Source: Deltaproteobacteria bacterium
Lineage (GTDB): Bacteria; Lernaellota; Lernaellaia; JACKCT01
Assembly (NCBI GenBank): GCA_020845895.1
Contig: JADLEX010000040.1
Coordinates: 1 to 48,575 of the forward strand
Length of the DNA: 48,575 bases
Direction of reading: 5' to 3'
Positions 4,014-21,271 of this stretch are shown here, piece after piece. The translations under genes were made by a program, and so were the position numbers. Every line of letters starts with the position of its first letter. Position 1 is the stretch's first letter. The notes below the pieces were generated by a model that worked only from the letters and a program-made list of their open reading frames with translations, was not told where the DNA came from and did not search any database.

Positions 4014-5480
4014 TTGCTGGACCCCCTGCCCACCGACGCCGCGCCGACCTTTTCCGCGCCCTCCGCGTCGAAACGGCCGAAACTCGCCGTCGTGCCGCGA
4101 ATCGACCATCGCAGAATCCTCCTCGTCTATCCGCCGACACCCGGCCTCACCGTCATGCCGCCGCTCGGCGTGGGCTATCTCGCCTCGGTCGCGATGCGCT
4201 CGGGCTTCGAGGTCGAGATCATCGACCTGAGCCGCCGCCACATGTCGTGGGGGCAGTTCGACGAGTACCTTCGCCGCGCTCGCCATGCCCTGATCGGGCT
4301 GTCCGTGTCGACGCCCAATCTGCACACCGCCGCATACACGGCCGCGCGCATTCGAGCGGCGCGGCCCGACGTGCCCTTCGTCGTGGGCGGCATCCACGTC
4401 ACTTGTTACCCGGAAAAGACCGTCCGCGATTTCGGCGCGGATTACGCGTTCGTTCACGAGTCCGAGGCGTCGTTTCCGCGCTTTCTCGAGGATCTCGCGC
4501 GCGGCGACGATCCCGTCGGCCGCGTTCCCGGCGTGTACGCGAATCGCGGCGGGCGATGGACGGGGCTTGCTCCCGAGCCGATCGGCGAAATCGATCCATT
4601 GCCGTGGCCCGCGTGGGAACAGCTCGCGCCGGACCGCTACCCGCCGATTCCGCACCAGCTCTTCGTCAAGGCGTTTCCGGTCGCGCCGATCATGACCACG
4701 CGCGGCTGCCCGATGAACTGTTCTTTTTGCGCCACCACGCGCGTGTTCGGCAAGAAGATCCGCCGGCGGCGCGCCGACGACGTGATCGCCGAAATCGACT
4801 TTTTGCGCCGCCGCTTCGGAATCCGCGAACTGCATTTCGAGGACGACAACCTGACGCTGCATCGTGGCGACGCCGTGCGCCTGTTCGAGGCGATCATCCG
4901 AGAACAGCCCGGGCTTTGGCTCAAGTGTCCCAATGGCCTGATGACCGTCACGCTCGATCGGGAATTGCTGAGCCTCATGAAGCGGGCGGGCATGTATCAG
5001 ATTTCGCTCGGCATCGAGACGACATCGCCCGACCTGATGCCCACCGAGCGAAAATACCTGCCGAATGAACGTGTTCGGTCGGTCGTGTCCATGGCCAAGA
5101 AGGCCGGACTCGAGGTGCAGGGACTCTTCATCGCGGGATTGCCGGGCGACACCGACGAGGAGTTTCGCCACACCGTCCGCGATGCCGTGTCGATGGGGCT
5201 CGATCTCGCGCACTTCGGGCTCCACGTTCCGCTCCCCGGCTCGCGCGACGGCGACGGCATCCGCGAGGACGACCTTTCCGCCCTCAATTTTTTCACCGTG
5301 CATCCCGTCAACCACCAGCGTTGGACGATCAACTGGAAATCGCTTCAGCGATGGGCGGTCCTGCGCTTCTATCTGCGGGCAAGACCGCTCTCGATCCTGA
5401 TGCGTCGCACGAAGTTTCGGCAGTTTCCGGGCGTGATGAAGGTCTTCGGGCGCTACGTGCTCGGCTGGGGGACGACGTGA
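4014..5480 (+). CDS. B12-binding-domain radical SAM protein (first of five)
   Basis: A 488-residue protein. Residues about 33-165 form a cobalamin-binding-like Rossmann region (ILLVYPPTPG near the start, VVGGIHVT at about 123-130). Residues about 225-430 are the radical SAM barrel with C232, C236 and C239 (CPMNCSFC), which would hold the 4Fe-4S cluster that cleaves S-adenosylmethionine. Family members of this layout do methylations or ring rearrangements at unreactive carbons; the substrate cannot be told. The start is a TTG at 4014, chosen because GGGAG lies 8 bases upstream and the nearby ATG at 4006 is out of frame. The C-terminus overlaps the next gene by GTGA. Confidence 0.85.
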   Translation: MLDPLPTDAAPTFSAPSASKRPKLAVVPRIDHRRILLVYPPTPGLTVMPPLGVGYLASVAMRSGFEVEIIDLSRRHMSWGQFDEYLRRARHALIGLSVSTPNLHTAAYTAARIRAARPDVPFVVGGIHVTCYPEKTVRDFGADYAFVHESEASFPRFLEDLARGDDPVGRVPGVYANRGGRWTGLAPEPIGEIDPLPWPAWEQLAPDRYPPIPHQLFVKAFPVAPIMTTRGCPMNCSFCATTRVFGKKIRRRRADDVIAEIDFLRRRFGIRELHFEDDNLTLHRGDAVRLFEAIIREQPGLWLKCPNGLMTVTLDRELLSLMKRAGMYQISLGIETTSPDLMPTERKYLPNERVRSVVSMAKKAGLEVQGLFIAGLPGDTDEEFRHTVRDAVSMGLDLAHFGLHVPLPGSRDGDGIREDDLSALNFFTVHPVNHQRWTINWKSLQRWAVLRFYLRARPLSILMRRTKFRQFPGVMKVFGRYVLGWGTT

Positions 5481-6805
5481 AGCCCGTCGCGCTCTTCCTC
5501 AATCCGCCCGGCGCGCGCGTCACCATGCGCGACGATATCTGCTCATCGTTCAGCAAGGTCGGCTACGCATGGCCGTCCATCGATTTCATCTGCCAGAGCG
5601 GCTATCTCGATCCGCACTTCGAACTGCGTCATCTGGACGCGTCCTCGCTGCGCTGGAGCGTCGAACGCACGCTGTCCGCCGTCGCCTCCATGCGTCCGTC
5701 GCTGATTTACGCGCTGGTGGGATCGGTGGCGCTCGGCGACGACCTCGCATTTGCGGAGCGGCTCACGCGCGTCACGGACGCCACACTCGTCATCGGTGGG
5801 GATTGGCCGCAGTTCCACGCGCGCGAAGCGCTCGAACGGCTTCCGAACGCGTTTGGCGCCGTCACCGACTTCACCGCGTCCGGGTTGTGCGACGCCGTTG
5901 TCCACGGATCGGCGGCGTCCGCCGGACTCGCCACGCGCACGCATGCCGCCGTTGAGCGAAAGCGCGGGCGGTTCGACTACCCCATGCCGCGGCACGACCT
6001 CTTCACGAACAACGCGTATCGAATGCCGTTTCTCACCCGGCCGTTCGCGTCGATTCTGACGGCCTACGGCTGCCCGTACGCGTGCACGTTTTGCAACTCG
6101 GGGTCCATCGGTTTCGCGCAGCGCGACGACGACGGGTTGTTCCGCGAACTGGACGAGCTTGAACGGCAGGGTTTTCGTTCGATCTACGTCAAGGATTTCT
6201 CGTTCAACGCGGATGCCCCACGCGCCAAACGACTGCTGGGCGAATGGCGTCGTCGCGGCTACCGGTTCACGTGGACGGGGTTTTTCCGCGGCGAGAAGAT
6301 CGACGTCGAGCTCGCGGCGCTCCTGCGCGAGACCGGGTGCCGCATGGCTCAAATCGGCATCGAAACCGCGAACGACGCGGTGCTGGGCGCGAACAAGCCC
6401 GCGGCGAATCTCGATGCGGTCAACGAAGGCGTCGCGCGGCTGCGCGACGCGGGTGTCGCGTACGGCGCGCACTTCGTCTTCGGACTCCCCGGCGACGATG
6501 AGATCGGTTTTCGCCGAACGCTCCGATGGGCCAAGGGCGCCGGTCTCGCCTACGCGTCGTTTAATGCGTTCACTCCCCGACCCGGCACGGCGCTGGCGAA
6601 GGGGGTCGATTTTTTTGCGGGCGTGCCGACCGATTCGCGGGTCGGCATTCATACACGCTCCGCCCATCGGGACTTCTACCGCGATCCACGATCGTGGTGG
6701 TCCGCCATTCGCTCCTCGGTTCGTTCCGGGAGTCTCGTATCCCTCGCCGCCATCGTCGTTCGGCGTTTTCGCCGGAAAGGGGCAGACGCATGGGTCGCAT
6801 CCTGA
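5477..6805 (+). CDS. B12-type radical SAM protein (second of five)
   Basis: A 442-residue protein starting at a GTG that overlaps the previous stop (GTGA), so translation is probably coupled. An N-terminal Rossmann-like region (VALFLNPPG at 4-12, VIGGDW at 105-110) is followed by a radical SAM domain with C199, C203 and C206 (CPYACTFC). The glycine-rich SAM contacts are kept: IGIETAND in the middle and FGLPGDDE later. The B12 region is more divergent than in the first gene and lacks a clear DxHxxG signature, as is common in this class. The C-terminal 50 residues are basic. The role within the cluster is unknown; a methyltransferase or C-C bond enzyme is possible. Confidence 0.82.
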   Translation: MKPVALFLNPPGARVTMRDDICSSFSKVGYAWPSIDFICQSGYLDPHFELRHLDASSLRWSVERTLSAVASMRPSLIYALVGSVALGDDLAFAERLTRVTDATLVIGGDWPQFHAREALERLPNAFGAVTDFTASGLCDAVVHGSAASAGLATRTHAAVERKRGRFDYPMPRHDLFTNNAYRMPFLTRPFASILTAYGCPYACTFCNSGSIGFAQRDDDGLFRELDELERQGFRSIYVKDFSFNADAPRAKRLLGEWRRRGYRFTWTGFFRGEKIDVELAALLRETGCRMAQIGIETANDAVLGANKPAANLDAVNEGVARLRDAGVAYGAHFVFGLPGDDEIGFRRTLRWAKGAGLAYASFNAFTPRPGTALAKGVDFFAGVPTDSRVGIHTRSAHRDFYRDPRSWWSAIRSSVRSGSLVSLAAIVVRRFRRKGADAWVAS

Positions 6806-7857
6806 AGCACCTCAAATATCCTGTCCGATACCCGGGCATCATCCCCCGGGCGGCCGAGAACTATTTCCGGATGATGGTGCTGGGCCAGAAGCGCCTGCGC
6901 GCTGTCGAGTTCGCGGTCAATTACGTCTGCCAGTGCCAGTGCGCTCACTGCTCGGTCGAGTTCCTCGGCCAGAAGCGACGGCCGCTGCTGGACACCGCGC
7001 AGATTTCACGCGTTCTCGACGAGTTGCACGGCATGGGAGTGATGAACATCAATTTCACGGGCGGCGAGGCGATCCTTCGCCCCGACCTGCGGGAACTCGT
7101 CCTCGCGGCCCGGCCGAAATCGACCGTCGTATCGGTGGCGACCGCCGCCACGATGGTCGACGCAAAGATCGCCGACGACCTGCGCGATTGGGGCGTGCGA
7201 ATCGTCACCATCTCGCTCGATTCGGCGGATGCGGAAACGCACGACCGTTCACGCCGGCATCCCGGCAGCTACGACAAGGTCATGAACGCGACGCGCCTCT
7301 TTCAGGAGCGCGACATCGACGTGTTCTGGTGCACGATCCTCACCGACGAGAACGCGATCAACGGCGACATGCTTCGCCTTGTGGACCAAGCCGAGGAATG
7401 GGGCGTGACGCTCACGATCAACTTCTCGTGCCCCGTTGGCGCGTGGCACGAGCAGCCGGTCGGCGTCGCGCCGGAACTCAAGGTCCTCCATCGCGAGCTG
7501 ATGGAACGCGAGCATGTCCGGTGGGAGGGACACTCCAACTACCACAAGGAAGGCTGCCCCGCGGGGATTGAGAAGCTCTACATCAGCCCCTACGGCGAGG
7601 TGATGCCCTGCCCGTTCATCCACGTGACCTTCGGCAATGTGCTTCAGCGCCCGGTGAATGACATCTGGAACGAGATGACGGGCACCGAACCTTTCCACGA
7701 GGTCCAGGAGGGCTGTCCCGTCGCCGAGAATCCGACGTTTTTCGTTCAATACCTTTCGCCGCTCAAGACGGCGGAGATTCACCCCGTGTCGATCGAGCAG
7801 ATCAGCACATCCCCGGCGCTTTGCGCCGATGGTGTGACGGAGACCGTGAGCGCATGA
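6790..7857 (+). CDS. Radical SAM protein with reduced SPASM-like C-terminus (third of five)
   Basis: A 355-residue protein. C47, C51 and C54 lie in the segment CQCQCAHC, and the TGGEA motif follows at about 90-94. The C-terminal part has EGCPAGIEKLY at about 254-264, a PYGxVxPC segment ending at C274, a GNV...DIW segment and a last EGC at about 307-309, like a SPASM domain with fewer cysteines than usual. The ATG at 6790 has AAAGGGG about 8 bases upstream and overlaps the previous gene by 16 bases. It is a clear paralogue of the next gene. SPASM enzymes act on peptides, sugars or quinone precursors; the substrate here is unknown. Confidence 0.82.
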   Translation: MGRILKHLKYPVRYPGIIPRAAENYFRMMVLGQKRLRAVEFAVNYVCQCQCAHCSVEFLGQKRRPLLDTAQISRVLDELHGMGVMNINFTGGEAILRPDLRELVLAARPKSTVVSVATAATMVDAKIADDLRDWGVRIVTISLDSADAETHDRSRRHPGSYDKVMNATRLFQERDIDVFWCTILTDENAINGDMLRLVDQAEEWGVTLTINFSCPVGAWHEQPVGVAPELKVLHRELMEREHVRWEGHSNYHKEGCPAGIEKLYISPYGEVMPCPFIHVTFGNVLQRPVNDIWNEMTGTEPFHEVQEGCPVAENPTFFVQYLSPLKTAEIHPVSIEQISTSPALCADGVTETVSA

Positions 7858-8927
7858 GCGGCATGGCCGAAACGGCGGGCGGACTGCACGACACGTGGCG
7901 GGCGAAGAACCTTCGCTACGCGTGGCGCTTTCGCAACCTGATCCCGAAGATGGCGCGTAACACGCTGCGAGCCCGTCGCGGCGAGCGCGTGCTGCGCGGC
8001 GTCGAATTCGCCGTGACCTATCACTGCAACTTCACGTGCAGCCATTGCCTTCGCGACAACCTGATCGGCGACCGCGAGGAACTCACCGCGGACCAGATTG
8101 TCGAAACCGCGCGCGCCATCGAGCGCCTCGGCGGCATCTTCATAAACTACACCGGCGGCGAGGCGCTGCTGCGGCCCGACCTGCCCGAGATCATCGAGCG
8201 CACCGCGTCGATTCGCGGGCTTTTCGTGAGCCTGGCCAGCAACGGATACATCCTGACCATGGACCGGCTGAGCGACCTGCGACGGCGCGGCCTGTCGATG
8301 ATGACCATGTCGCTCGACGGCCCGACCGCCGCGATCCATGACGGATTCCGCAAGAAGACGGGGTCGTACGATCGTGTGCTCGCCGCGGTCGATAACGCGA
8401 AATCGCTCGGTATCGACGTGTGGCTCAACGCCGTGGTGCGAAGCGACCTCGCGCGGGAAGGGCATCTCGACGATCTCGCGAAGCTCGTGAAGGAACTCGG
8501 CTGCATGCTCACGCTCAACCTGCCCTACGCCGTCGGCGGTTGGGAAGGAAAGGACGTGCACCTCACTCCGGATGCTTACGAAGCGTACAAAAGGATGCTC
8601 CGGCACTCGTGGGTGCGATGGGAAGGTTCGTCGAACTGGGTGAGCGAGGGCTGTCCCGCCGGGATCGAGAAGCTCTACCTCACGCCCTACGGCGACGTGC
8701 TGCCCTGCGGCGCGGTCCACCGAAACTACGGAAACGTCGTCGTTCATGGACTCGAGGCGATCTATCACCGCATGGGCAGCGAGGCCGGATTCGGCACCTG
8801 CCGCAAGGGATGCCTCGCCGCCGAGGAACCGCATCGACTGGACGACCTGAAGAACACCGCCACGGTGCCGAAGACCGCGCGCGTCGAGTTTGTCTCCGTG
8901 CGTCCGCGCGCGGGCGCGGAGGCGTGA
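7854..8927 (+). CDS. Radical SAM protein with SPASM-like C-terminus (fourth of five), paralogue of preceding gene
   Basis: A 357-residue protein starting at an ATG in the ATGA overlap with the preceding stop. C58, C62 and C65 (CNFTCSHC) bind the radical SAM cluster, and YTGGEA follows. The C-terminal part shares long identities with its neighbour: WEGxSN, then EGCPAGIEKLY, then PYGxVxPC. Unlike the neighbour it ends with a CxxxC pair (TCRKGC), so it can complete an auxiliary cluster. The two genes look like a tandem duplication that has since diverged, which suggests successive steps on related substrates or a heterodimer. The specific reaction is not known. Confidence 0.82.
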   Translation: MSGMAETAGGLHDTWRAKNLRYAWRFRNLIPKMARNTLRARRGERVLRGVEFAVTYHCNFTCSHCLRDNLIGDREELTADQIVETARAIERLGGIFINYTGGEALLRPDLPEIIERTASIRGLFVSLASNGYILTMDRLSDLRRRGLSMMTMSLDGPTAAIHDGFRKKTGSYDRVLAAVDNAKSLGIDVWLNAVVRSDLAREGHLDDLAKLVKELGCMLTLNLPYAVGGWEGKDVHLTPDAYEAYKRMLRHSWVRWEGSSNWVSEGCPAGIEKLYLTPYGDVLPCGAVHRNYGNVVVHGLEAIYHRMGSEAGFGTCRKGCLAAEEPHRLDDLKNTATVPKTARVEFVSVRPRAGAEA

Positions 8928-8932
8928 CGTCG

Positions 8933-10390
8933 ATGGAAGACCTCGTCGTTCTCGTTCAGCCCGAAACGAACATCCTCGATCGGGCGAAGACGCGGCCGAC
9001 GCCGCCGCTGCCCCTGCTCGCCGCCGCGTCGCGCGTGGCGCGGCGGACGAAGGTCGCGCTGGTGGACGTGCGCTATGACCGTCGAGGGTGGCGAAAGATT
9101 CTGGCGGGGCATCTCGCGCGAAAACCGATCTGCGTCGGCGTGACGTCGGTAACCGGAAATCAGATCCTGTCCACGCTCGAGGTCGTTCGCTACGTGCGAT
9201 CGGTCTCGGACGTTTCCGTGGTCTGGGGCGGGGTGCATGCGACGCTTTTCCCCGATCAGGTGCTCGGCGAGCCGTCCGTCGATTACGTCGTGCGCGGCGA
9301 GGGCGAGGACACCTTCGAAGAACTCGTCGCCGCGCTGTCTGCCGGGAAAGACGTGACGGGCATCCGCGGGCTCAGCCACCGGCGCGACGGGCAGATCGTT
9401 CACAACGAGGACCGCCCCTTCGTCAACCTCGACGACCTGCCCGAAGTGCCCTACGAGTTGATGGGCGAAGAGCCGTACTTCTACTCGCAAGGCAAGCCGA
9501 CGCTCTACGTCGAGACCTCGCGCGGGTGCTTTTCGCGGTGCACGTATTGCTACGTGTCCGGCTTCCACCTGCGACGCTGGCGACCGCAGTCGGCGTCCCG
9601 GGTGCTCGAACGATTCGACGGCCTGCGCAGGCGTTGGCCCGTCATTCGCCATCTGTCGCTCGTCGACGACAACTACTTCGGCGAAGTGAAGCGCATGCGC
9701 GTCATCAGCGAGGGCCTGATCGAGCGCGGATCGCCGTGGTCGTATCAGGTGCAGGGTGCGCATATCCAGGTCGTGTCGCACCTCAAGATCGACGACTTTC
9801 GCCTGCTCGCGCGAAGCGGCTGCGAGCGTCTCGACATGGGTCTCGAATCGGCCTCCACTTCCATGCACAAAATCATTCGCAAACGCATCGATCTCGACGC
9901 GGTTCGAAACATGAACCGCATGCTCGGCGAGGTCGGCATCGTGCCGTGGTACAACATCATGGTGGGGTTCCCGGGCGAGACGACCGCCGACCTCGATGCG
10001 ACACGCGACTACGTGATGCGGCTGCGGGACGAGAATCCCAAGGCGCTATTCTCGCCGTTCTACCGCGTGGTCCCCTACCCCGGCACGGAACTGTTCGCCA
10101 CCGCGCTCGAAGCGGGTTTCGAACCGCCGCGATCGCTGGAAGGCTGGAAGAATTTCCACTCCGACGGCGCCGACGTGCCGTGGCAGACGCGACGCGGAAA
10201 GAAGCGGATCAGCCAGCTGTTTTTCTTGACGATGTTCTTCGATCGCAAGAGCGAGATCTACAACACCAACGCGATCGTGCGGCTGCTCGCACGCATCTAT
10301 CGGCCCATCGCCGCCATGAGGCTTCGCCGCAACTGGATGCGCCTTATGCCCGAGTATTCGCTCTTCCGCCTCGTCTTCAACGCGTCCTGA
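8933..10390 (+). CDS. B12-binding-domain radical SAM protein (fifth of five)
   Basis: A 485-residue protein. The N-terminal 140 residues are a cobalamin-binding Rossmann domain (VWGGVHAT at about 97-104, VVRGEGEDTF at about 119-128), followed by the radical SAM domain with C199, C203 and C206 (CFSRCTYC). The remaining barrel motifs are good (DDNYFGE, MGLESAS, VGFPGET), and a basic C-terminal helix region follows. The ATG at 8933 is preferred because GGAGG lies 10 bases upstream; a GTG at 8924 inside a GTGA overlap is the alternative. This architecture matches cobalamin-dependent methyltransferases and the BchE/hopanoid type enzymes. It is the last gene of the plus-strand operon. Confidence 0.85.
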   Translation: MEDLVVLVQPETNILDRAKTRPTPPLPLLAAASRVARRTKVALVDVRYDRRGWRKILAGHLARKPICVGVTSVTGNQILSTLEVVRYVRSVSDVSVVWGGVHATLFPDQVLGEPSVDYVVRGEGEDTFEELVAALSAGKDVTGIRGLSHRRDGQIVHNEDRPFVNLDDLPEVPYELMGEEPYFYSQGKPTLYVETSRGCFSRCTYCYVSGFHLRRWRPQSASRVLERFDGLRRRWPVIRHLSLVDDNYFGEVKRMRVISEGLIERGSPWSYQVQGAHIQVVSHLKIDDFRLLARSGCERLDMGLESASTSMHKIIRKRIDLDAVRNMNRMLGEVGIVPWYNIMVGFPGETTADLDATRDYVMRLRDENPKALFSPFYRVVPYPGTELFATALEAGFEPPRSLEGWKNFHSDGADVPWQTRRGKKRISQLFFLTMFFDRKSEIYNTNAIVRLLARIYRPIAAMRLRRNWMRLMPEYSLFRLVFNAS

Positions 10391-10393
10391 ACC

Positions 10394-11425
10394 TCACAGC
10401 GCCTTCATCCAGTTCCAGACCGTCCCGGGGTGAAGGTTGAAGATCAGGTTCGATTCGAGCCAGCACGAACTCGCGCACGAGTTGCAACCCTCAAGCAACG
10501 GCAGCGATGCGAACGCCGCGGCGAATCCGCCGTCGAAGATCGAGATGCCGTCGTGCGTGGCGCGGTGCCAACCGCAACCGTAGAGCGTGCCGTCGGCCGT
10601 GAGTTCACACGACGCGCGCGCCGCGACGCAGCGATATCGCGATGAGGATTCCGCGCTCGTGACATGTGTGTAATCGCGCCACGCCGCGAGTTCCTCGAGA
10701 TACGCCATCGACGATCCCACCGGCGCTCCGCTCTTCTTCAGGTCGATGATTCGCCGGAGAGCGCGACGAAGGTCCGTCGGTTCGGGCATGAGATCGCCGA
10801 CGTCATCGGGAGACGGATGAAAGCGTACGCCCTCATCGGTCTGCGTGTGAAGGAGGACGCAGTTGGCCATCGAGCCGTTCCGCCGCGCGCGATCGACGAT
10901 CCAATCGATCTGATCCAGGTTCCGGCGACAGAGCACCGTGGTGGTCCAAAAGGCGATGCGCCGATCGCGAAATACGTCGACCGCCTCTCGCGATTCGCGC
11001 ATTGAACGCTCGCCCCGCAGCGCGGTCCGCACCTCGTCGGGACCATCGAACGACAGCATGACGCGGTCGCACGCGGCGAGCGCGTCGGCGTAGCGCGCGG
11101 CGGCATACCCGCTCATCGCGACGCTGATAAAGAATCCCATCCGTTTGAGCATCGACACGATCTCGGGAAAATCGTCGCGCAGAAGCGGTTCGCCACCCGT
11201 CAGGTTGATGCGCCGCCCGCCGACCAGCCAGGCTTCCCGGGCGACGTCGCGCAGGACATCGAGCGTCAGTCGATCCGGTCGCGCCCGGTCGTACGAGCAA
11301 TAGAGGCAATGATTCGGGCACCGGTATGTGAGCTGAAGATTCATCGTCAGCGGGGCGCGGTGCGTCTTTGACCATCGAAGGCGAAGCGTGTGTTCGAGAA
11401 AGTGGGCGTAGTCCGCGGCCTTCAC
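10394..11425 (-). CDS. Radical SAM/SPASM domain protein
   Basis: A 343-residue protein with C36, C40 and C43 (CPNHCLYC) and NLTGGEP shortly after. The C-terminal SPASM region is cysteine-rich: RCVAARASC, then GTLYGCGW, then GCNSCASSC, enough for at least one auxiliary 4Fe-4S cluster. The start is a GTG that overlaps the stop of the methyltransferase gene as GTGA. An in-frame extension upstream of it lacks radical SAM sequence and overlaps the methyltransferase, so it was rejected. It is the last gene of the minus-strand operon, and its stop lies 3 bp from the stop of the facing operon. Substrate unknown. Confidence 0.83.
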   Translation of the reverse strand: MKAADYAHFLEHTLRLRWSKTHRAPLTMNLQLTYRCPNHCLYCSYDRARPDRLTLDVLRDVAREAWLVGGRRINLTGGEPLLRDDFPEIVSMLKRMGFFISVAMSGYAAARYADALAACDRVMLSFDGPDEVRTALRGERSMRESREAVDVFRDRRIAFWTTTVLCRRNLDQIDWIVDRARRNGSMANCVLLHTQTDEGVRFHPSPDDVGDLMPEPTDLRRALRRIIDLKKSGAPVGSSMAYLEELAAWRDYTHVTSAESSSRYRCVAARASCELTADGTLYGCGWHRATHDGISIFDGGFAAAFASLPLLEGCNSCASSCWLESNLIFNLHPGTVWNWMKAL

Positions 11426-12114
11426 GATCCATTCTCCGAGTCGGGCGCATCGCCGGCGAAAAAAATGAATTCGTGGTCTCCGGTGTAACCGAACCGCTCG
11501 AAGATCCACTCCCATCCGTCCACGGAAAACAGGCTCTCGCACGTGAGTTGCCAGGCGAGCAGGTTTGCTTTTTCGCGCTCGTCGCGCCAGGACTCCACGA
11601 CAATGAATGCCGCGCCGCGCCCCACGCGTCGGATCTCCCGGAACGCCGTTTCCAGATCGCGGATACCGAGGTTGTGCAGAGTGTTGATCGACAGCACGAG
11701 ATCGAAGGACGAATCGGAATACGGCAGATTCGTCGCGGTCCCCTCGTCGAGAAATTCCCGCACATGCTCCGGCGCGTGCTCGATCGCGTATCGCGAAATG
11801 TCGAGTCCTCGTACGACGAGACCCGGCACCGCGGTCGCGAGTTCGTTCAGCAGAAACGCCTTTCCGCAGCCGATGTCGAGCACCGCTTGCCCGGCGTGAA
11901 GACCGTAATGGTTGGCGATCCGCCGCGCGACGCCCTGCCACCGCCCGTCATCGCGAAACCCGCCGTAGCCGAACCTGCGGGCGCCGTCCCAGTAGTCGGC
12001 GTCGAAACGCTTGGCGACACGCGCGCACTCGGCCTTGTCGTGCACGGCCACGCGCTCGCGATAGTCGCGCCGCGTCTGCGTGTGAAGCGCCGTGATGAAG
12101 TCGAGACGTGCCAT
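11422..12114 (-). CDS. Class I SAM-dependent methyltransferase
   Basis: A 230-residue protein with a Rossmann methyltransferase core from about residue 60. Motif I is VLDIGCGKAFLL at about 79-90, an acidic residue at the end of strand 2 lies in GLDISRYA, and motif IV is SFDLVLSINTLHNL. The first 60 residues are a helical cap with many aromatic residues (YWDGARRFGYGG). It belongs to the Methyltransf_11/25 group, which methylates small molecules, so O- or N-methylation of the cluster's product is plausible. It sits between two radical SAM genes, overlapping the downstream one by 4 bases and 12 bp after the upstream one. Confidence 0.82.
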   Translation of the reverse strand: MARLDFITALHTQTRRDYRERVAVHDKAECARVAKRFDADYWDGARRFGYGGFRDDGRWQGVARRIANHYGLHAGQAVLDIGCGKAFLLNELATAVPGLVVRGLDISRYAIEHAPEHVREFLDEGTATNLPYSDSSFDLVLSINTLHNLGIRDLETAFREIRRVGRGAAFIVVESWRDEREKANLLAWQLTCESLFSVDGWEWIFERFGYTGDHEFIFFAGDAPDSENGS

Positions 12115-12126
12115 GTTTGGGCGATC

Positions 12127-13200: not shown

Positions 13201-13213
13201 GCCGTCTCCGCCA

Positions 13214-14332
13214 TCAATCGCCACGCCGAGCGGCCGCCGCGTCGAACTCCCGAAGCGCACGAAACACGCGCTCCAGTTCCTCGTCCGTACGGTCGGGTCC
13301 GCTGGGGAGTATAAGCCCGGTTTCCGCGAAACGCCGCGCGTTCGGCAACGGATTCATCACTTTCAGATGGGATATCCGGTCGAGCGGAGGGTCTAGCGGC
13401 TTCGCCTGAATCCCCCGCCGACGCAGGTGCCGGATCAATTCGTCACGGCGCTCGCACTCGGCTTCGATCCACATGGGCAACTCGCCGCGCTCCAGCTTGG
13501 GTCGGCGAAGGCAAACCGACGTCAGCCCTTTCATTTCGATCCGGTAACGACGATGGAGCGCCAACAGGGCTTCTTTCCGCAATTCGATCCGGTCGACCTG
13601 CGCGAGCGCCATGGCCGCCTGGACATCCGTGAGCCGGAAGTTGAACCCGAACAACGGAAAACGCCCGGTCGACACCTTCGTCGCGCCGTGATTGCGAATC
13701 CGCCGCATCGCTTCAGCCAACACGGGGTCGCTCGTCGCGCAGAAACCGCCCTCGCCCGTCACGATCAGCTTCGTCATGCTCATCGAAAAGCACCCGATTT
13801 CGCCGGTCGTCCCGAGATATTGCCCGGCGGCCTGCGAGCCCATCGCCTGTGCGGCGTCTTCGACCAATGAGATTCCGTGGGTTTTCGCGATCCCGGCGAG
13901 TTCCGTCATTTTCGCGGAGCGCCCGTTGGGATGCACCGCGATGATCGCGCGCGTTCGATCGGTGATGGCGCGGTTCACCGCGCGCGGGGCGATGGTCGAG
14001 CGACCGCCCGATTCGACATCCACGACGATCGGCGACGCCCCGGCAAGGAGCACCGCATTGGCCGTCGCCACGAAGGTGTATCCCGGCACGATCACCTCGT
14101 CGCCACGCCCGACGCCGAGCGCGAGCAGGGCCGTCGTCAGAGCCGCCGCGCCGCTGCCGACCGCCACGACGTGGGGGACGCCGAGCCATGTCGCGAGCGC
14201 CGATTCAAGCCTTGCGACGATAGGCCCCGTGGATACATGACGCGAAAGGACGGCATCCCGCGCTGCGTCCGCGACCTCGCGTCCCAGATCGATCCACCAC
14301 CAGGGAATTGTGCGCCGAATGCCGACCGTCAT
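13214..14332 (-). CDS. DegT/DnrJ/EryC1/StrS family PLP-dependent aminotransferase
   Basis: A 372-residue protein, typical family length. It shows the substrate and PLP motifs in order: GSGAAAL at about 59-65, VPGYTFVATANAV at about 82-94, VEDAAQAMG at about 157-165 (D159 contacts the PLP ring nitrogen), and SMTKLIVTGEGG with the probable Schiff-base lysine K188. The family aminates keto-sugars bound to nucleotides, or other cyclic ketones. The ATG at 14332 overlaps the upstream glycosyltransferase stop as ATGA. It implies that an amino group is installed on a sugar or cyclitol in this pathway. A dehydratase role, known for a few family members, is less likely because the lysine is kept. Confidence 0.88.
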   Translation of the reverse strand: MTVGIRRTIPWWWIDLGREVADAARDAVLSRHVSTGPIVARLESALATWLGVPHVVAVGSGAAALTTALLALGVGRGDEVIVPGYTFVATANAVLLAGASPIVVDVESGGRSTIAPRAVNRAITDRTRAIIAVHPNGRSAKMTELAGIAKTHGISLVEDAAQAMGSQAAGQYLGTTGEIGCFSMSMTKLIVTGEGGFCATSDPVLAEAMRRIRNHGATKVSTGRFPLFGFNFRLTDVQAAMALAQVDRIELRKEALLALHRRYRIEMKGLTSVCLRRPKLERGELPMWIEAECERRDELIRHLRRRGIQAKPLDPPLDRISHLKVMNPLPNARRFAETGLILPSGPDRTDEELERVFRALREFDAAAARRGD

Positions 14333-15084
14333 GTCGCCAGCCGCGAAGCACCCCACACGCCGTCTCCGCGCAGCCGTCGATGGAGCCGTTCACGCACGTA
14401 CAGCCGCGCGATGTCGCGAATCACGCCGACAAGATTCGCCCAGCGAAACGCCTTGGTGCGTTTTCGCGGATCGAAGCGATCCAGGGCGCCGACTTCGACG
14501 AATGGCGTACCGCGATCAAGCAGACGCACGAGCATCGCGGCCTGAAACGCGTAACTCGACGAACCGTCGACGGCCTCGCGCGCGAGGTGCGTCGGCATGA
14601 GGACCGAGTGGTTGAAGTACCGAAGGCGGTATCCGAAGAGTGCGCTCATGATGAACGTGAACATCCGGGAGATCACGCGGCGAAACGCGGAGCGCTCCCG
14701 CGTATTGACGGTAAAGGGAATGACAATTCCAGACCCTTCAGCCGCGCCGAAAATGATGTCGAGCGACGACTCGGTCATGTCGTTGCAGCCGTTCGCGCGC
14801 ATCACGTAGTTCATCGACGCCAACTGAAGTCCCGTCCGAAACGCGCCGCCGAGACCGCTCGGCGAAGCGTGGTGGACCGCGCGCACACCGGGAAGCCGAT
14901 GCGCCAGTTCGTCGATCACGACGCCGGTGCGGTCGGAACTCCCGTCGTTCACGACGATGATCTCGACATCGTCGAACCATCGCGACGCCGCGTCGCGGGC
15001 GGTCTCCACCGCCGCCCCGACGTTCGATTCCTCGTTGAACGCGGGTACGATGATCGAAATCGACGTTCTCGCCGTGTTCATCAT
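14329..15084 (-). CDS. Family 2 glycosyltransferase, polyprenyl-phosphate sugar synthase-like
   Basis: A 251-residue protein starting at the first of two ATG codons in an ATGATGA overlap with the transketolase gene. The N-terminus has the GT-A signature IIVPAFNEESNV and VVNDGSSDRTG. The segments SGLGGAFRTGL and FGYRLRYFNHSVLMPT resemble DPM1/ArnC-like enzymes that put a sugar on undecaprenyl phosphate. The DxD metal site expected after the middle beta strand is not clear: the aligned segment reads MRANGCND. There are no strong membrane segments apart from one hydrophobic stretch near residue 150. It would make the lipid-linked donor used by the GT-C proteins encoded at 326-3786. Confidence 0.8.
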   Translation of the reverse strand: MMNTARTSISIIVPAFNEESNVGAAVETARDAASRWFDDVEIIVVNDGSSDRTGVVIDELAHRLPGVRAVHHASPSGLGGAFRTGLQLASMNYVMRANGCNDMTESSLDIIFGAAEGSGIVIPFTVNTRERSAFRRVISRMFTFIMSALFGYRLRYFNHSVLMPTHLAREAVDGSSSYAFQAAMLVRLLDRGTPFVEVGALDRFDPRKRTKAFRWANLVGVIRDIARLYVRERLHRRLRGDGVWGASRLAT

Positions 15085-16022
15085 GCTTTCACCGGCCGTG
15101 CGTCGGTCGCGATCCGGGCGATTCGTTCCGCGACGGACTCGGCGTCGAGGCCGTGCCTCGCACGCAGACATGGACCCGACCCGATCCCAAGGTTCGCCTC
15201 ATCCGGCATCGAGAAACGAACGACGCGGCACGATATGCCCGACTCGGCAACGATCTGACTGACAATGGCGTGAAGCCCTCCATACGGGCCGTGTTCCTCG
15301 ATCGTTGCGATGATGGCGTGCGTCGACGCGATTGCGGCGACGGCATCCCGGTCGATCGGCTTCGGCGTCGGCGCGCTGAAACACGAGACCGAAATCCCTC
15401 GCTCGGAGAGTCGCTCACACGCACCCAAGGCCGTCTTCACCATGTGTCCGGTCCCGATCAACGCGATCTTCTCTCCCTCGCGAATGCGAATCAGTCCGCC
15501 GATTCGAAGCGCCTCGGGAGTCCGTTCGTGCACGCTCGGCTCGCCCGACTTCGCGAGTCGAAGATACGCCGGTCCGTCATGCGTGGCGATGGCGTGCATC
15601 AGGGACTCGACCTCGAACGGGTCGCCGGGGGCGAGCACGGTCATTCCCGGCAAAGCGGACATCGCCCCCACGTCGTGCAGCGAGTAGTGCGTCGGACCTT
15701 CCGCGCCATAGGTCACACCCGCGCCGACGCCGACGATCAGAACGGGCAAATGGTGCAGACAGATATCGATGCGGATCTGCTCCAGACACCTGGCGGTGAC
15801 GAACGGTACGATGCCGTAAAGCACGGGGCGAAAGCCCTCCGACGCCATGCCCGCTGCGAAGCCGATCGCGGCCTGCTCCGAAACGCCGACGTTTAGGAAT
15901 TGGCCGGGTCGCTCCGCACGGAATTCGTCGAACACGCGAAAGCCGGTATCCGCGGATAGCAGGACCCAGCGCGGATCGGCCGCGGCCAGTCGCTCAAATG
16001 CGCGGACGAACGCGGTCCTCAC
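15081..16022 (-). CDS. Transketolase-like protein, C-terminal subunit
   Basis: A 313-residue protein equal to the pyrimidine-binding and C-terminal domains of transketolase or DXS-like enzymes. It shows the conserved SEQAAIGFAAGMA segment with the catalytic glutamate region, TYGAEGPTHYSLHD and PGDPFEVE. With the adjacent N-terminal subunit it forms a split, thiamine-diphosphate-dependent enzyme. The start is a GTG overlapping the previous stop (GTGA). Split transketolases placed inside sugar or antibiotic clusters usually move two-carbon units to make unusual sugars rather than serving central metabolism. That role here is inference from context. Confidence 0.87.
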   Translation of the reverse strand: MRTAFVRAFERLAAADPRWVLLSADTGFRVFDEFRAERPGQFLNVGVSEQAAIGFAAGMASEGFRPVLYGIVPFVTARCLEQIRIDICLHHLPVLIVGVGAGVTYGAEGPTHYSLHDVGAMSALPGMTVLAPGDPFEVESLMHAIATHDGPAYLRLAKSGEPSVHERTPEALRIGGLIRIREGEKIALIGTGHMVKTALGACERLSERGISVSCFSAPTPKPIDRDAVAAIASTHAIIATIEEHGPYGGLHAIVSQIVAESGISCRVVRFSMPDEANLGIGSGPCLRARHGLDAESVAERIARIATDARPVKA

Positions 16023-16807
16023 GACGATTTATCCTTATCCATTCGGAGCGCGTCCAACATGGCGGGGGTGATCGAAAAGTAATGTGATTCCAGCCGATCC
16101 TCGAGCTCGGGCACTCCACGACCTTTGATCGTGCGCGCGATAACCACCCTCGGCGAATCGTCGGCGTTCGCCTCGAACGCGGACGTGAGCGCGGCGTGGT
16201 CGTGGCCATCGCACTGTGTCACGGTCCATGCCGCCGCCTCGAACGCGCGATGGATGAAATCGCCCGGCAGCACGTTCGCGACGCGGTCGTACCCCTGCCA
16301 ACCGTTGGCGTCCACGACGGCGACCAGATTCGCCATGCGCATCCGTCCCGCCAGCGCCGCGGCCTCCCAGACCGTGCCTTCCCCACACTCCCCGTCACCG
16401 AGCACGACGAAGACGCGGCCCGATTCCCCCCGCCTCGTCATCGCCCACGCGATCCCCGCTCCCACGGCGAGACCGTGACCCAGCGATCCCGTCGTCCACT
16501 CGATGCCGGGCGCGGTGCCGACCGTCGGATGGCCGGGCAAGCCCGCGTCTTTCATGTAGTTTTCGAGCTGCCGGGCCGGAATCGTCCCGCGAAGAGCGAG
16601 CGCGGCATAAAGCGCCGACACGCCATGCCCTTTGCTCAGGATCAACCGATCGCCTCCGACGTTTCCGACACCGGTCATGACGGCGAATTGCAGAACGGCG
16701 ACGATATCCGCGATCGAGAGCGCCGATCCGACGTTGGGACCGATGCGGTGCATCTCGAGGATGCGATCCCGAATGAACTTCGCCGCATCGCGAGAATTCG
16801 ACGTCAC
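16019..16807 (-). CDS. Transketolase-like protein, N-terminal (TPP-binding) subunit
   Basis: A 262-residue protein with the thiamine diphosphate motif: GDG at 137-139 and the matching asparagine N168 in DANGWQ, about 30 residues later. LSKGHGV at 57-63 and TGSLGHGL at about 106-113 are also typical of transketolase N-terminal halves. It starts at a GTG overlapping the upstream stop (GTGA) and overlaps the C-terminal subunit gene in the same way, so the two chains should be made in equal amounts. It lacks the pyrimidine-binding domain, which the next gene supplies. Confidence 0.88.
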   Translation of the reverse strand: MTSNSRDAAKFIRDRILEMHRIGPNVGSALSIADIVAVLQFAVMTGVGNVGGDRLILSKGHGVSALYAALALRGTIPARQLENYMKDAGLPGHPTVGTAPGIEWTTGSLGHGLAVGAGIAWAMTRRGESGRVFVVLGDGECGEGTVWEAAALAGRMRMANLVAVVDANGWQGYDRVANVLPGDFIHRAFEAAAWTVTQCDGHDHAALTSAFEANADDSPRVVIARTIKGRGVPELEDRLESHYFSITPAMLDALRMDKDKSS

Positions 16808-18438
16808 AGGGGCTCTCCCGCCTCAACCGCGCCAGGTCGGTCCGGTTGCGCGGACTGACGCAGCACCTCGTCGACATCGACCGCGAACTGACCGGCGGAC
16901 GATGCGATCAGAATCTCGCCGTCGTTCAACGATCGGGTGACGGCCCGGACTCTCGTTCCGATTCGGATCCGGGCCAGGAATTCCAGTCGTTCCGACCGAT
17001 GGAACGCCAGGGTTCCGTCCAGAAAACTCGGAACGATGAGAAGATCACGCGCGGAATCGTGATAAGCGGAGCGCGGGTAGCGATCGGTTTCGACGGAGTC
17101 GATCGTCTCCAGCGAATCATACGACACCTTTTCCACGCGATGCCGCGAATAATAGCTGATATAGAAATAGGACCGATCCGTCTGCGTGATATAGGAAACC
17201 ACGTCGTCGATGTATCGTTCCCGCAGGACCCGACCATCCAGATCCGTCTTCGTCAACTTTCCTCGAAGCGGGCGCAGACTCGCCTTGTTCGAGCCCAAGA
17301 ATACGATGGAATTCCCATCCGGAGACCAGATGCAGTCGGTGTTTCGATTTCCGACTTCGATCGCCTTGGCGCTGCGTTGTTCCAGATCGAAATAGACGAC
17401 GCCGGACGCCTCGTCGAACTGAGCCAGGAATTTCGTCGGATTCCCGGCCGGAAAACCACGAATGTTCCCGCCGGCGAACGTGGGATTCATTCGCCGAAAC
17501 TCCGGCTCGAACGATGCCACGAACTCCGGTTGCGCATCCGCCGTTCGCATCAACCAAAGCTTGGGACCCGAAAAGAACCAGTAAGCGCGCCGGCCCGCAT
17601 CCCAAACGGCTTCGTCCGACGGTCGATACGTTTCCGACCGACAGGCGTCCGATCGGCCGGCCCGATAAGCACAAAAGTCCGCAATGTGGTGATAAAAGCG
17701 CCAACCATTGCCCGCGCCGTCGTCGATGAAAAAATTGATATCCTGTCGGTCGAAGGAAGCGAGTTGCCGTACGCCCGGCTGCGAAGCGATCTCGGCGGCC
17801 GCCTCGGGGTGGGACGCCGAATACGAATGAATGCTCAACGTCCCGATCACGCCCAGACCCGCGATGATCGAGAGGTGCGCCCACCTCGGCGCCGGTGACG
17901 AGCGCGCGTTTTCGAGAATCCGGTGAAGTCCCAATGCGGTGGCCAGCAGCAGGGCCACGACGGACATCAGCGACCAAGAGAACTCGTGAAAACATCCATG
18001 CGACACGAGGAATGCGGCGAGACAGATGGCGCCGTCGATCATCCACCCGGCGCCACTGCGAATCAGCCGTCCCGAAATCAGGAGCGAAACGGCGACGACG
18101 GGAAACACGATTTCGACCCCGGGAAAGAATCGCCGCAGCCACGAGGCGATCGCGATGACGGGCCCCCACGCCAGAACGATCATCACGACGAACGGAAGTA
18201 CGACTTTCCAACCGTCGCGCGTGGAGAAGCAACTCGCGGCGAAGAACACGCAGGCGACGGCCAGAGCGCCGCAAAGCACCCGGGCGTAAGGATACTTGAT
18301 CGCGACGAGTCCGAGGTAGCACGGCAAAACCGGGACGACCCAGAGCAGCAACGTGAGCGAGAGGCGGGTCAGCCTTCGCTTTCCGTCCCCCGTCAACACG
18401 CGTCCCCCGAGGCGAATCGGAACCGGTCGCCTCGACAA
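16804..18438 (-). CDS. Membrane protein with C-terminal beta-propeller-like domain
   Basis: About 544 residues. Residues 25-210 contain six or more hydrophobic segments; the remaining 330 residues are soluble and look like a TolB/WD40-type beta-propeller (blade motif DCIWSPDGNSIVFLG and several weaker repeats). The start is uncertain: a TTG at 18438 follows the upstream stop by 3 bases, while a GTG at 18399 has GGGGGA 3 bases before it and would remove 13 residues. The gene lies between two radical SAM genes and the transketolase genes and overlaps the latter by GTGA. I know no named family for this fusion. It may be a membrane scaffold or sensor for the pathway product. Confidence 0.65.
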   Translation of the reverse strand: MSRRPVPIRLGGRVLTGDGKRRLTRLSLTLLLWVVPVLPCYLGLVAIKYPYARVLCGALAVACVFFAASCFSTRDGWKVVLPFVVMIVLAWGPVIAIASWLRRFFPGVEIVFPVVAVSLLISGRLIRSGAGWMIDGAICLAAFLVSHGCFHEFSWSLMSVVALLLATALGLHRILENARSSPAPRWAHLSIIAGLGVIGTLSIHSYSASHPEAAAEIASQPGVRQLASFDRQDINFFIDDGAGNGWRFYHHIADFCAYRAGRSDACRSETYRPSDEAVWDAGRRAYWFFSGPKLWLMRTADAQPEFVASFEPEFRRMNPTFAGGNIRGFPAGNPTKFLAQFDEASGVVYFDLEQRSAKAIEVGNRNTDCIWSPDGNSIVFLGSNKASLRPLRGKLTKTDLDGRVLRERYIDDVVSYITQTDRSYFYISYYSRHRVEKVSYDSLETIDSVETDRYPRSAYHDSARDLLIVPSFLDGTLAFHRSERLEFLARIRIGTRVRAVTRSLNDGEILIASSAGQFAVDVDEVLRQSAQPDRPGAVEAGEPL

Positions 18439-18441
18439 ATC

Positions 18442-19560
18442 TCAGATGAAATCATCGTGCGCCAATGGATTCTGAAGTCGCCAGAGGTACCGGTTCGATG
18501 CGTGCATCCGGCAGACGTCGCGGCAGCGCGCGAGGTCCAGTCGATTCTCGACAAAATCCACAACGTTCTTTCGTCGATCGGACTCCCAGATCGCGGACAT
18601 CGACTGGCTGTTCAGGTCGCCGACGAAAAAGTCGTTGTCCCCCGCGAACACGTTGCACTCCCACACCCGTCCGTCCGCGCCGACGAAGTTCAGGAAGTGT
18701 GTTCCGTGGCACTGGGCGTAGGGTTTCTCGCGTCCGGTCTGACGAGCCGATTCGATGCGGGCGATGACGGAAAAGGATTCGGTCGCGAGCGGCGCGATCC
18801 GCGCCGCGAGTTCTTCGAACACTTCGAGGTCGGTCGCGATTCCTCGCATGGACTTCGGATGTTCGGAGTAAGGTTTGAGACTGAAATAATCCGCGCCCGA
18901 CTCGCGCGCGCGAAGGACGAAACGTTCAACGTCGTGCGGTCTCTGGTCGAGCAGGACGAGTTGGACTCCGATCGTCACGGCCAGTTCGAGCGACCGCTTT
19001 CGCGCGACGGCCGCCTCGAAGTTCGCCATGACCTTCGCGAAGTCCGACGGCCGCGTCCGGTGCATTCGGGCGTATTCGAGCGGATGTGAACCGTTGATCG
19101 AAAATCGGATCCACTTCAGGTCGTCGATCAATCCGATCCCCGCGTCGCGCAGGCGGCGGCCGTTCGTCGTCACCGACGCGCTCATGCGCTTCGACGCCCG
19201 CTCGATCAGTTCCGCCGCGTTCGGGTGCAGAACCGGCTCGCCGTGCCCGCTGAACATGATCGAACGGTTTCCCATCGATGCGAGTTCGTCGATCGTGCGG
19301 GATGCGAGGTCACGATCCATGAATCGGGCCGGTTTGTTGACGAGGTGTTCCACCCCGCAAAACCGACACGCGTGGTTGCAGGCCGTCGTCAGTTCGAATT
19401 CGGTGTAGATCGGCGCGGGCGTCCGACCCGTCCGGAGCCACTCGGCGACGCGCTCCGGGAACAGGCTCAGGCGCTGCGCGTCGAAAGCGGTGTCGAATGA
19501 CGGGCCCTGTTCCGGTCGAGCGTCCGCCGGGACCGGCGCGGTCGCGTCGCGCGACGACAT
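18442..19560 (-). CDS. Radical SAM/SPASM domain protein
   Basis: A 372-residue protein with C61, C65 and C68 (CNHACRFC), FSGHGEP in place of the usual TGGEP, and SVTTNG. The C-terminal part has QCHGTH, then GRVWECNVFAG, then a GDL...IW segment, then ARCRDVC, a SPASM-type layout. It starts at an ATG sharing one base with the upstream stop (TGATG). The first 45 residues are low in order and rich in Pro and Ala. The HGEP variant places a histidine where many family members have a glycine. The substrate is not known. Confidence 0.82.
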   Translation of the reverse strand: MSSRDATAPVPADARPEQGPSFDTAFDAQRLSLFPERVAEWLRTGRTPAPIYTEFELTTACNHACRFCGVEHLVNKPARFMDRDLASRTIDELASMGNRSIMFSGHGEPVLHPNAAELIERASKRMSASVTTNGRRLRDAGIGLIDDLKWIRFSINGSHPLEYARMHRTRPSDFAKVMANFEAAVARKRSLELAVTIGVQLVLLDQRPHDVERFVLRARESGADYFSLKPYSEHPKSMRGIATDLEVFEELAARIAPLATESFSVIARIESARQTGREKPYAQCHGTHFLNFVGADGRVWECNVFAGDNDFFVGDLNSQSMSAIWESDRRKNVVDFVENRLDLARCRDVCRMHASNRYLWRLQNPLAHDDFI

Positions 19561-20462
19561 CACTCGACCTCCCGGATTTCGACGGACGTATGGCCGAACT
19601 CCTGAAAGCGGTTCGTCTTGATCTTGACATCGCACGGGTGGCACGAACCGAAGGCGTCGCAAGGCGCGAACGCATCGGACAGTCGAAGATCCGCATCGAG
19701 AATGTGACCGCGCGGATTGCGCCGGGCGTACAGATCCGCGTGACAACGATACACGTCGCCGTTCGGATCAATCAACAGCTCGGACGGCCGGCAGCGCACG
19801 GAACGCCGTTCGCCGGTCATGGCGTCCGCATATCGATAGGTTCCGAGTGTCCGCCCGCGATGCGACCCGAGAAATTCCTTCGTGCGGATATCGATGGCCA
19901 TCTTCGCGCATGTCTCGTAAGCGCGCCGATTCGCGTCGGCATGCGCCGGATGGTCGATCACATAGACGCCGACCGGAAATCCGGCATCGATCAGCGTTCG
20001 CACCGACGAGAGCAAGTCGTCCAACCGGCTCTGCGTGGGGTGGTAAGACACCCGGATGGAGGCGTACGGGGCCCTGCGCCGGAGGCGATCGGCGGGCACG
20101 GTCTTCACGAATCGGCGCACATCGAAGGACAGATTCGTCAGGATGTCGATGTGCAGGTCGTCACGAAGACCGAGAATGATTTCCAGAAAATCGGGATGCA
20201 AGCTCGGCTCGCCGCCTTGAAGCGTGACCGGAAGATCGTCCGGCAGCCGCAGTCGGTTGAGTCCCTCGACCCACTGCGAGCCCGTCAGTCCGAATGTGCC
20301 TTTCCACAGCCTGACGCGGGATTTGCCGACCGTGTTGATGCAGTAGAAGCAGCTCTTGTTGCAATCGAGCGTCAGAAACACGCCGACGTAGTTGAACCGC
20401 GCGGGCAATACCTCGGGGGTCAATTCGCCAGGCGTATCGCGATGGGCGAGAGGCGACGCCAT
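19560..20462 (-). CDS. Radical SAM protein with SPASM-like C-terminus
   Basis: A 300-residue protein with C34, C38 and C41 (CNKSCFYC), then LQGGEPSLHP and a C-terminal cysteine group: VRCRPSE, GDVYRCHAD, APCDAFGSCHPC. The final cluster CxxxxxCxxC resembles the SPASM or twitch region. The ATG at 20462 is in a TGATG overlap with the cupin gene. The in-frame sequence upstream of it lies inside the cupin gene and is not part of this protein. It is the shortest of the nine radical SAM enzymes in the two operons. Reaction unknown. Confidence 0.82.
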   Translation of the reverse strand: MASPLAHRDTPGELTPEVLPARFNYVGVFLTLDCNKSCFYCINTVGKSRVRLWKGTFGLTGSQWVEGLNRLRLPDDLPVTLQGGEPSLHPDFLEIILGLRDDLHIDILTNLSFDVRRFVKTVPADRLRRRAPYASIRVSYHPTQSRLDDLLSSVRTLIDAGFPVGVYVIDHPAHADANRRAYETCAKMAIDIRTKEFLGSHRGRTLGTYRYADAMTGERRSVRCRPSELLIDPNGDVYRCHADLYARRNPRGHILDADLRLSDAFAPCDAFGSCHPCDVKIKTNRFQEFGHTSVEIREVE

Positions 20463-21271
20463 CAATCTCCCGACTCCGCGCCCGCGACGGACGCGCCGAG
20501 TCCAAATGCGTGCCGGGATGATTCCGACTCCCCGATGCCCAATTGGTTCAGCAGGCGCCGCGTGTAGGCGATCCCCCTTTCGCGGTCGGCCCGATCGGGC
20601 GCCCATTTTGCGTACTGGGTCGACATCCCTTCGACGAAGGGACCGTTGGCGATCTCATGCGTGATGAAATCATCCGACAACGGAATGATCGCGTGGTGAC
20701 GGGCGGACTCGAACCGGATGGCGTGCGTCGAGCCCGCATCCAACCGAATCGACCACGCGACGGCGCCCCGATCGTCGAATCCGATCGCGATGCCGCGTCC
20801 GGACACGGCGCGAACGCTCTCGACGCGATCCGAATGCCGATGCGGCGGATGATAAACATCGCGCGAAAAGACGATCACCATCTCCTGCAGGGGATCGCTC
20901 ACGTGATCGTGAAGGCACCATCGCACATCCAGACCGACGTGATCCCGCGCGATCTCCCGGAGCCGATCGATGACCGCGGAATCGATCCGGGCGGGATAGT
21001 TCGTGCATCGGAGCACGAGCGATCGCTCGTCGCGGCGTTCGATCCTGAAGTCGTTCGTTTCGGCTCCGCGCGCGCCGGAACCCGGCGTCGAGCCCGCGGC
21101 GGCAAGCGCATCGATGGCGGATGCGTGCCCGCGAAAGTCATCGGAATGATCGGTTGCCAAGACCAAAGCGGACCCCAGCGAGCGGCCTGTGCCCGTCGCA
21201 CCCGGATGCGCGGAGTCGAATCCGTCGATAGGAAATTCATTAACAGATTGGGGGTGGTCCTTCAACGCCAT
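20462..21271 (-). CDS. WbuC-like cupin fold protein, first gene of the minus-strand operon
   Basis: A 269-residue protein. From about residue 110 it matches the WbuC cupin family: DPLQEMVIVFSRD, then HPPHRHSDRVESV with the usual histidine metal ligands, then IRFESARHHAIIPLSDD, GPFVEG and YAKWAPD. WbuC proteins are found in O-antigen clusters and their chemistry is not established. The N-terminal 90 residues are an additional region without a clear match. A strong AAGGAGG lies 3 bases before the ATG, a short spacing. The gene opens the eleven-gene operon and links it to surface polysaccharide systems. Confidence 0.75.
   Translation of the reverse strand: MALKDHPQSVNEFPIDGFDSAHPGATGTGRSLGSALVLATDHSDDFRGHASAIDALAAAGSTPGSGARGAETNDFRIERRDERSLVLRCTNYPARIDSAVIDRLREIARDHVGLDVRWCLHDHVSDPLQEMVIVFSRDVYHPPHRHSDRVESVRAVSGRGIAIGFDDRGAVAWSIRLDAGSTHAIRFESARHHAIIPLSDDFITHEIANGPFVEGMSTQYAKWAPDRADRERGIAYTRRLLNQLGIGESESSRHAFGLGASVAGAESGD

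Follow-up and report, generated by a model that had tools for sequence, protein, structure and literature searches.

Two twitch-type radical SAM enzymes that may stand in for a zinc alcohol dehydrogenase and a short-chain dehydrogenase in a widespread bacterial sugar cassette

NeoA, a nicotinamide adenine dinucleotide (NAD)-dependent dehydrogenase, performs in the neomycin pathway the step that the radical S-adenosylmethionine (SAM) enzyme BtrN performs in the butirosin pathway, and would be a precedent for swapping one kind of enzyme for the other. BtrN is a radical dehydrogenase of the twitch type and has a four-cysteine auxiliary cluster (PMC9012708). DesII acts on a thymidine diphosphate (TDP)-amino sugar. 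In Campylobacter, Cj1427 is a guanosine diphosphate (GDP)-heptose C4-dehydrogenase and the heptoses derive from sedoheptulose 7-phosphate (PMC10680097). Here we compare these systems with a locus on a 48,575-nucleotide contig of a Deltaproteobacteria bacterium (JADLEX010000040.1, assembly GCA_020845895.1; hereafter the window) that carries nine radical SAM (rSAM) genes. From sequence comparisons we consider it rather probable, with ample room for doubt, that two of them, rSAM8 and rSAM14, are radical dehydrogenases that take the places of a Zn alcohol dehydrogenase and a short-chain dehydrogenase/reductase (SDR) in a cassette for modified-sugar biosynthesis.

Both enzymes possess three plus four invariant cysteines: C46, C50 and C53 followed by C279, C297, C338 and C342 in rSAM8 (12127..13224, minus strand), and C60, C64 and C67 followed by C283, C301, C345 and C349 in rSAM14 (18442..19560, minus strand). 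The CxxxCxxC motif was invariant in the alignments, which comprised 27 rSAM8 and 16 rSAM14 rows. In both, the auxiliary four are spaced C-x17-C then C-x3-C, a twitch pattern without the full SPASM set, despite which rSAM14 passes the Pfam SPASM cut-off. BtrN likewise combines CxxxCxxC with four auxiliary cysteines, and the rSAM14 profile matched its twitch region (4m7t, E 5.6e-10, C-terminal part). However, BtrN has ~250 residues, whereas the enzymes described here have a full rSAM barrel (~370 residues), and it belongs to an antibiotic cluster whereas they occur in widespread glycan loci. By sequence, the rSAM14 profile matched DesII best (8hzv, E 4.6e-15), and DesII was also the top Foldseek match of the rSAM8 AlphaFold model (mean predicted local distance difference test score, pLDDT, 89.7); with the rSAM14 model (mean pLDDT 85.6), BtrN was found at Foldseek rank 25. 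Both models resemble DesII and other SPASM/twitch enzymes, although DesII is longer and only ~20% identical to them. For rSAM8, BtrN was not among the matches listed in either the profile search or Foldseek, and the rSAM8 and rSAM14 profiles aligned with each other over their length.

The two genes belong to a recurrent cassette for which we used as marker MT7, a class I methyltransferase (11422..12114, minus strand; Pfam Methyltransf_11, 62 bits) that is 44-60% identical across phyla. MT7 matches were found in 21 other genomes when 386 were searched, and a scan of 84,980 species genomes yielded at least 438 confirmed relatives, the best 80 of which were taken as loci; the named cassette loci span ~18 phyla. 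The arrangement (rSAM14)-TktN-TktC-MT7-rSAM8, where TktN (16019..16807, minus strand; Pfam Transketolase_N, 107.5 bits) and TktC (15081..16022, minus strand; Pfam Transket_pyr and Transketolase_C) are the two halves of a split transketolase, recurs in distant genomes, mostly amid sugar or glycan genes. Plasmid pDCAR1 of Solidesulfovibrio carbinolicus DSM 3852, for example, has TktN-TktC-MT7-rSAM8 within a glycan cluster. Recurrent companions of TktN, TktC and MT7 are an HldE-like kinase/nucleotidyltransferase, a GmhA-like isomerase, epimerases, an APH-type kinase and a HAD-like protein, and the cassettes additionally hold either NAD-type dehydrogenases or else rSAM8 and rSAM14.

This alternation was quantified in 73 loci with TktN, TktC and MT7, drawn from the best MT7 matches. 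rSAM8 (24 loci) and the Zn alcohol dehydrogenase ADH7 (37 loci) never occurred together (0/73, Fisher 1e-10), nor did rSAM14 (16 loci) and the SDR enzyme SDR9 (36 loci; 0/73, Fisher 4e-6). The joint states occupied were SDR with ADH (22 loci), SDR with rSAM8 (6) and rSAM14 with rSAM8 (16); rSAM14 was always accompanied by rSAM8 and in none of the 73 loci by ADH7. The activities and cofactor use of SDR9 and ADH7 are predicted from family membership. The cysteines, profiles and folds of rSAM8 and rSAM14 would fit dehydrogenases, and the mutual exclusion at the two slots lends indirect support to alcohol oxidation.

In order to follow the exchanges by phylogeny, we used a tree of the core proteins MT7, TktN and TktC, as MT7 alone resolved poorly. 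Loci L008 and L037 are sisters in it (Shimodaira-Hasegawa-like approximate likelihood ratio test, SH-aLRT, 99) and share the string HldE-GmhA-GSU2086-X-HAD-kinase-TktN-TktC-MT7-rSAM8-MT, where one locus has rSAM14 at position X and the other has SDR9. Approximately unbiased (AU) tests on the core-protein tree rejected a single origin of rSAM8 (p-AU 1e-4) and of rSAM14 (p-AU 9e-45). Under the model, each state thus arose more than once. It is quite possible, though somewhat less likely than not, that the pathway occurs in three forms (NAD, mixed and all-radical), with rSAM enzymes having repeatedly taken over two dehydrogenations and rSAM14 entering only where rSAM8 was already present.

Several observations weigh against a one-for-one replacement of dehydrogenases, or limit how far the survey can carry it. 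The AU tests relied on a quick tree and on groups named after the loci had been seen; the loci surveyed were the best matches to MT7, and some of them have empty slots where the contig ends. Outside the 73, locus L043 holds rSAM14-like and SDR9-like genes together. The best match of SDR9 in the Protein Data Bank was 6vo6 (130.6 bits versus 83.3 for the next), which we tentatively take to be the Campylobacter heptose C4-dehydrogenase Cj1427, the entry not being named in PMC10680097. The cassette of an Omnitrophota genome (L052) contains a phosphoenolpyruvate (PEP) mutase, an AMP-binding ligase and what is probably an acyl carrier protein (L052:2292-4915, plus strand), which suggest additional chemistry. 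In the window's own genome the L008 kinase found no match and the L008 HldE found partial matches only (GmhA and HAD were not searched), therefore the window's form may use another sugar supply. Finally, the APH-type kinase and HAD genes are more often missing in rSAM14 loci than in others, so the rSAM form may be another branch rather than a one-for-one swap.

That last tendency favors the strongest alternative, according to which the rSAM forms make a different product by other radical reactions, such as epimerisation, deamination or decarboxylation, and branching of the pathway would account for the missing NAD enzymes. The best fold and sequence matches include the ammonia lyase DesII, the decarboxylase BlsE and the epimerase EpeE, and a title cited in PMC10991966 describes HygY as a twitch rSAM epimerase in which dehydrogenase activity is latent. 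We nevertheless regard this alternative as unlikely, if worth serious attention: ADH7 alone is swapped for rSAM8, with SDR9 kept, in the six mixed loci, and the sisters L008 and L037 differ at the SDR slot while the remainder is conserved. Furthermore, C185, the sole extra conserved cysteine of rSAM8, was considered as an epimerase-type hydrogen donor and rejected, being missing in L052 and in the Myxococcota locus L104, whose rSAM8 proteins are the two most similar to that of the window.

If rSAM8 and rSAM14 are dehydrogenases, the cassette of the window could operate as follows. The transketolase would transfer a two-carbon unit, building or cutting the carbon skeleton, and rSAM14 and rSAM8 would convert hydroxyl groups on a sugar or sugar nucleotide into ketones. 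One keto group would be aminated by a DegT/PseC-like aminotransferase dependent on pyridoxal phosphate (13214..14356, minus strand; Pfam PF01041, 285.6 bits; 38% identical relative in L052), and MT7 would serve as the methyltransferase. The glycosyltransferase GT2 (14329..15084, minus strand; Pfam PF00535, 70.2 bits; relative at 39% identity in both L052 and L131), which is possibly a polyprenyl-phosphate sugar synthase given that its weak NCBIfam matches include such synthases, would load the sugar onto polyprenyl phosphate, and GT-C membrane enzymes would transfer it outside the cell. We infer that the same reaction is kept at each swap, as we do the substrates, the order of steps, the product and the export on polyprenyl phosphate. 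The substrate is perhaps of heptose type, as a sugar nucleotide or sugar phosphate. Capsular heptose modification in Campylobacter jejuni resembles the related cassettes in its GmhA-like and HldE-like genes, and SDR9 is nearest to 6vo6. In contrast to the cassette, no transketolase or radical enzyme is mentioned for that pathway in PMC10680097. HldE and GmhA accompany many, though not all, related cassettes; both are absent from the window, unlike in the Campylobacter pathway, as are the kinase and HAD genes.

Another known system brings together similar types of enzyme. The genes supplying 3-amino-5-hydroxybenzoic acid (AHBA, aminoshikimate route) for rifamycin include an oxidoreductase, a DegT-type aminotransferase, a phosphatase, a kinase and a split transketolase. 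To our knowledge the AHBA supply enzymes are of other families, and we know of no AHBA-specific gene among those called in the window. The original prediction knew of no described pathway with this gene set, and limited literature searches, which left most subscription journals uncovered, indeed found none; a limited search for a link to Coxiella virenose returned nothing relevant.

Gene calling at 4014-21271 recovered the predicted layout of 16 coding genes in two convergent operons, five on the plus strand (4014-10390) and eleven on the minus strand (10394-21271), whose ends lie 3 bp apart. Gene junctions mostly overlap, by 1-28 bp, and intergenic gaps within both operons do not exceed 42 bp. 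As foreseen, CxxxCxxC is present in all nine rSAM genes. Pfam Radical_SAM scored above its cut-off in eight of them, the marginal case being rSAM15 (28.2 bits against 29.5, or 30.1 bits with frame neighbours included). The earlier SPASM-like labels were borne out by Pfam SPASM in the plus-operon enzyme SPASM3 and in rSAM14 but in no other of the nine, and rSAM8 and rSAM14 carry the twitch cysteine pattern. The accessory functions that had been read in the minus operon, namely methyltransferase, aminotransferase, glycosyltransferase, split transketolase and cupin, were all supported by family matches. The last is a WbuC-family protein (20462..21271, minus strand; TIGR04366, 90.5 bits, cut-off 42) that also adjoins the cassette in L052. 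The predicted membrane propeller protein corresponds to a called gene (gene 13, 16804..18399, minus strand); a possible beta-propeller part is a reading of its letters, and gene 13 matched no family and had no counterpart in the loci compared. The remaining minus-operon genes are rSAM15 (19560..20423, minus strand), 46-48% identical in L031, L033 and L131 and immediately preceding rSAM14 in all four loci that have it, and radical SAM enzyme 6 (rSAM6; 10394..11425, minus strand; Radical_SAM, 78.6 bits), a 38% identical relative of which adjoins MT7 in L052.

The Omnitrophota genome has the order rSAM15-rSAM14-TktN-TktC-...-GT2-...-DegT-WbuC-rSAM8-MT7-rSAM6, near-identical to the window except for the position of WbuC. 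It is one of the two genomes nearest to the window in gene content; the other is the Myxococcota locus L104, which groups with the window in the core-protein tree. At lower window coordinates than both operons, a GT-C type membrane glycosyltransferase of the PMT_2 family (326..1891, minus strand; Pfam PF13231, 35.0 bits, cut-off 26.1) is a possible partner for transferring a lipid-linked sugar. PMT_2 proteins are also present in the related Omnitrophota cluster. The adjoining GT-C-like membrane protein (PTPS_related; 1885..3786, minus strand; Pfam PF10131, 31.1 bits, cut-off 26.4) may likewise be tied to the minus operon. In cassettes elsewhere, a GSU2086-family protein (L008:3164-4180, plus strand; NF052581, 389.7 bits, cut-off 250) was seen in 5 of the 73; insertions in GSU2085-GSU2087 of Geobacter impair growth on electrodes (PMC5585712). 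We read the minus operon as an rSAM-rich variant of a widespread cassette built around the split transketolase and MT7, and it probably serves to make an unusual sugar or glycan. The earlier proposal of such a product is upheld for this operon by the co-occurrence of the cassette with glycan genes in distant genomes.

The plus operon comprises B12-binding radical SAM enzyme 1 (B12-rSAM1; 4014..5480, plus strand; Pfam B12-binding 71.7 bits, Radical_SAM 81.8 bits), radical SAM enzyme 2 (rSAM2; 5477..6805, plus strand; Radical_SAM 50.1 bits), radical SAM/SPASM enzyme 3 (SPASM3; 6790..7857, plus strand; Pfam SPASM 32.4 bits), radical SAM/SPASM-like enzyme 4 (SPASM4; 7854..8927, plus strand; Radical_SAM 92.9 bits, SPASM below cut-off) and B12-binding radical SAM enzyme 5 (B12-rSAM5; 8933..10390, plus strand; Pfam B12-binding 54.8 bits). 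B12-type regions had been assigned to three of its genes; Pfam B12-binding matched two, genes 1 and 5, and not rSAM2. In six relatives of the same class (G001-G006), SPASM4 relatives and the SPASM3-SPASM4 pair were found in all (the G002 pair is fragmented), B12-rSAM5 had its best relatives (38-57% identity) in all six, and rSAM2 relatives (39-49% identity) occurred in five; B12-rSAM5 and rSAM2 relatives sometimes share one locus. These genomes yielded no MT7 match at E 1e-25 and carry other split-transketolase-like genes of lower similarity.

The 16 genes had been proposed as a single system. In such a system the plus operon could act on the same sugar, introducing C-methyl groups and other radical modifications. 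The adjacent, convergent placement of the operons speaks for this, as do B12-rSAM1-like enzymes near the cassette in the distant loci L008, L033, L039, L098 and L108, the one remaining possible link between the operons, and a weakly SPASM3-like gene in L033. Even so, we judge it improbable and rejected it as a description of the locus, because plus-operon relatives are conserved class-wide in genomes with no MT7 match at E 1e-25. Additionally, close relatives of rSAM2, SPASM4 and B12-rSAM5 were not found among the cassette loci compared, and rSAM clusters are frequent in the window's own genome. The plus operon is thus probably a separate, class-conserved rSAM set outside the minus-operon system; co-occurrence across genomes was seen for the minus cassette, over ~18 phyla, and the plus operon is conserved separately.

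The clustering of nine rSAM genes exceeds chance, yet rSAM-dense stretches are common here: the 4.98 Mb genome holds ~100 Radical_SAM matches, with groups of comparable kind on contigs C17 and C120, which makes the gene count less remarkable. Contig C17 also encodes a stop-free protein of 2361 aa with five rSAM modules, one SPASM-type and four B12-type (L133:9479-16564, plus strand; CxxxCxxC at 24, 586, 1096, 1608 and 2114), with counterparts as stop-free frames of 2363-2606 aa in G001, G003, G004, G005 and G006. A 1033 aa frame on the same contig (L133:2038-5139, plus strand) joins a first part that is carbamoyltransferase-like by eye to a radical SAM domain. On contig C158, a 2077-codon multi-module rSAM frame containing four CxxxCxxC motifs (L135:541-6771, plus strand) has similar sequences as 1948-2106 aa frames in G001, G003, G004 and G006.

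Modification of a ribosomally synthesised and post-translationally modified peptide (RiPP) by several SPASM maturases is very improbable: peptide maturation is a common role of SPASM rSAM enzymes, and SuiB and SkfB were among the fold matches, but none of the nine proteins reached an NCBIfam equivalog cut-off among the families listed (best 25 per protein), the short gaps between called genes leave no space in which a precursor could be encoded (flanking short open reading frames were not examined), and the transketolase, DegT, GT2 and WbuC genes indicate a sugar.

For most SPASM/twitch radical enzymes a substrate has yet to be assigned, and replacement at a slot by ordinary dehydrogenases offers a concrete guess at the type of reaction that two large unassigned families catalyse. 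Operons matched save for one slot, moreover, permit a direct complementation test. If rSAM8 and rSAM14 are radical dehydrogenases, the cassette would make an unrecognised bacterial surface sugar, and its forms would constitute a natural series in which radical chemistry displaces nicotinamide chemistry at fixed steps of a pathway.

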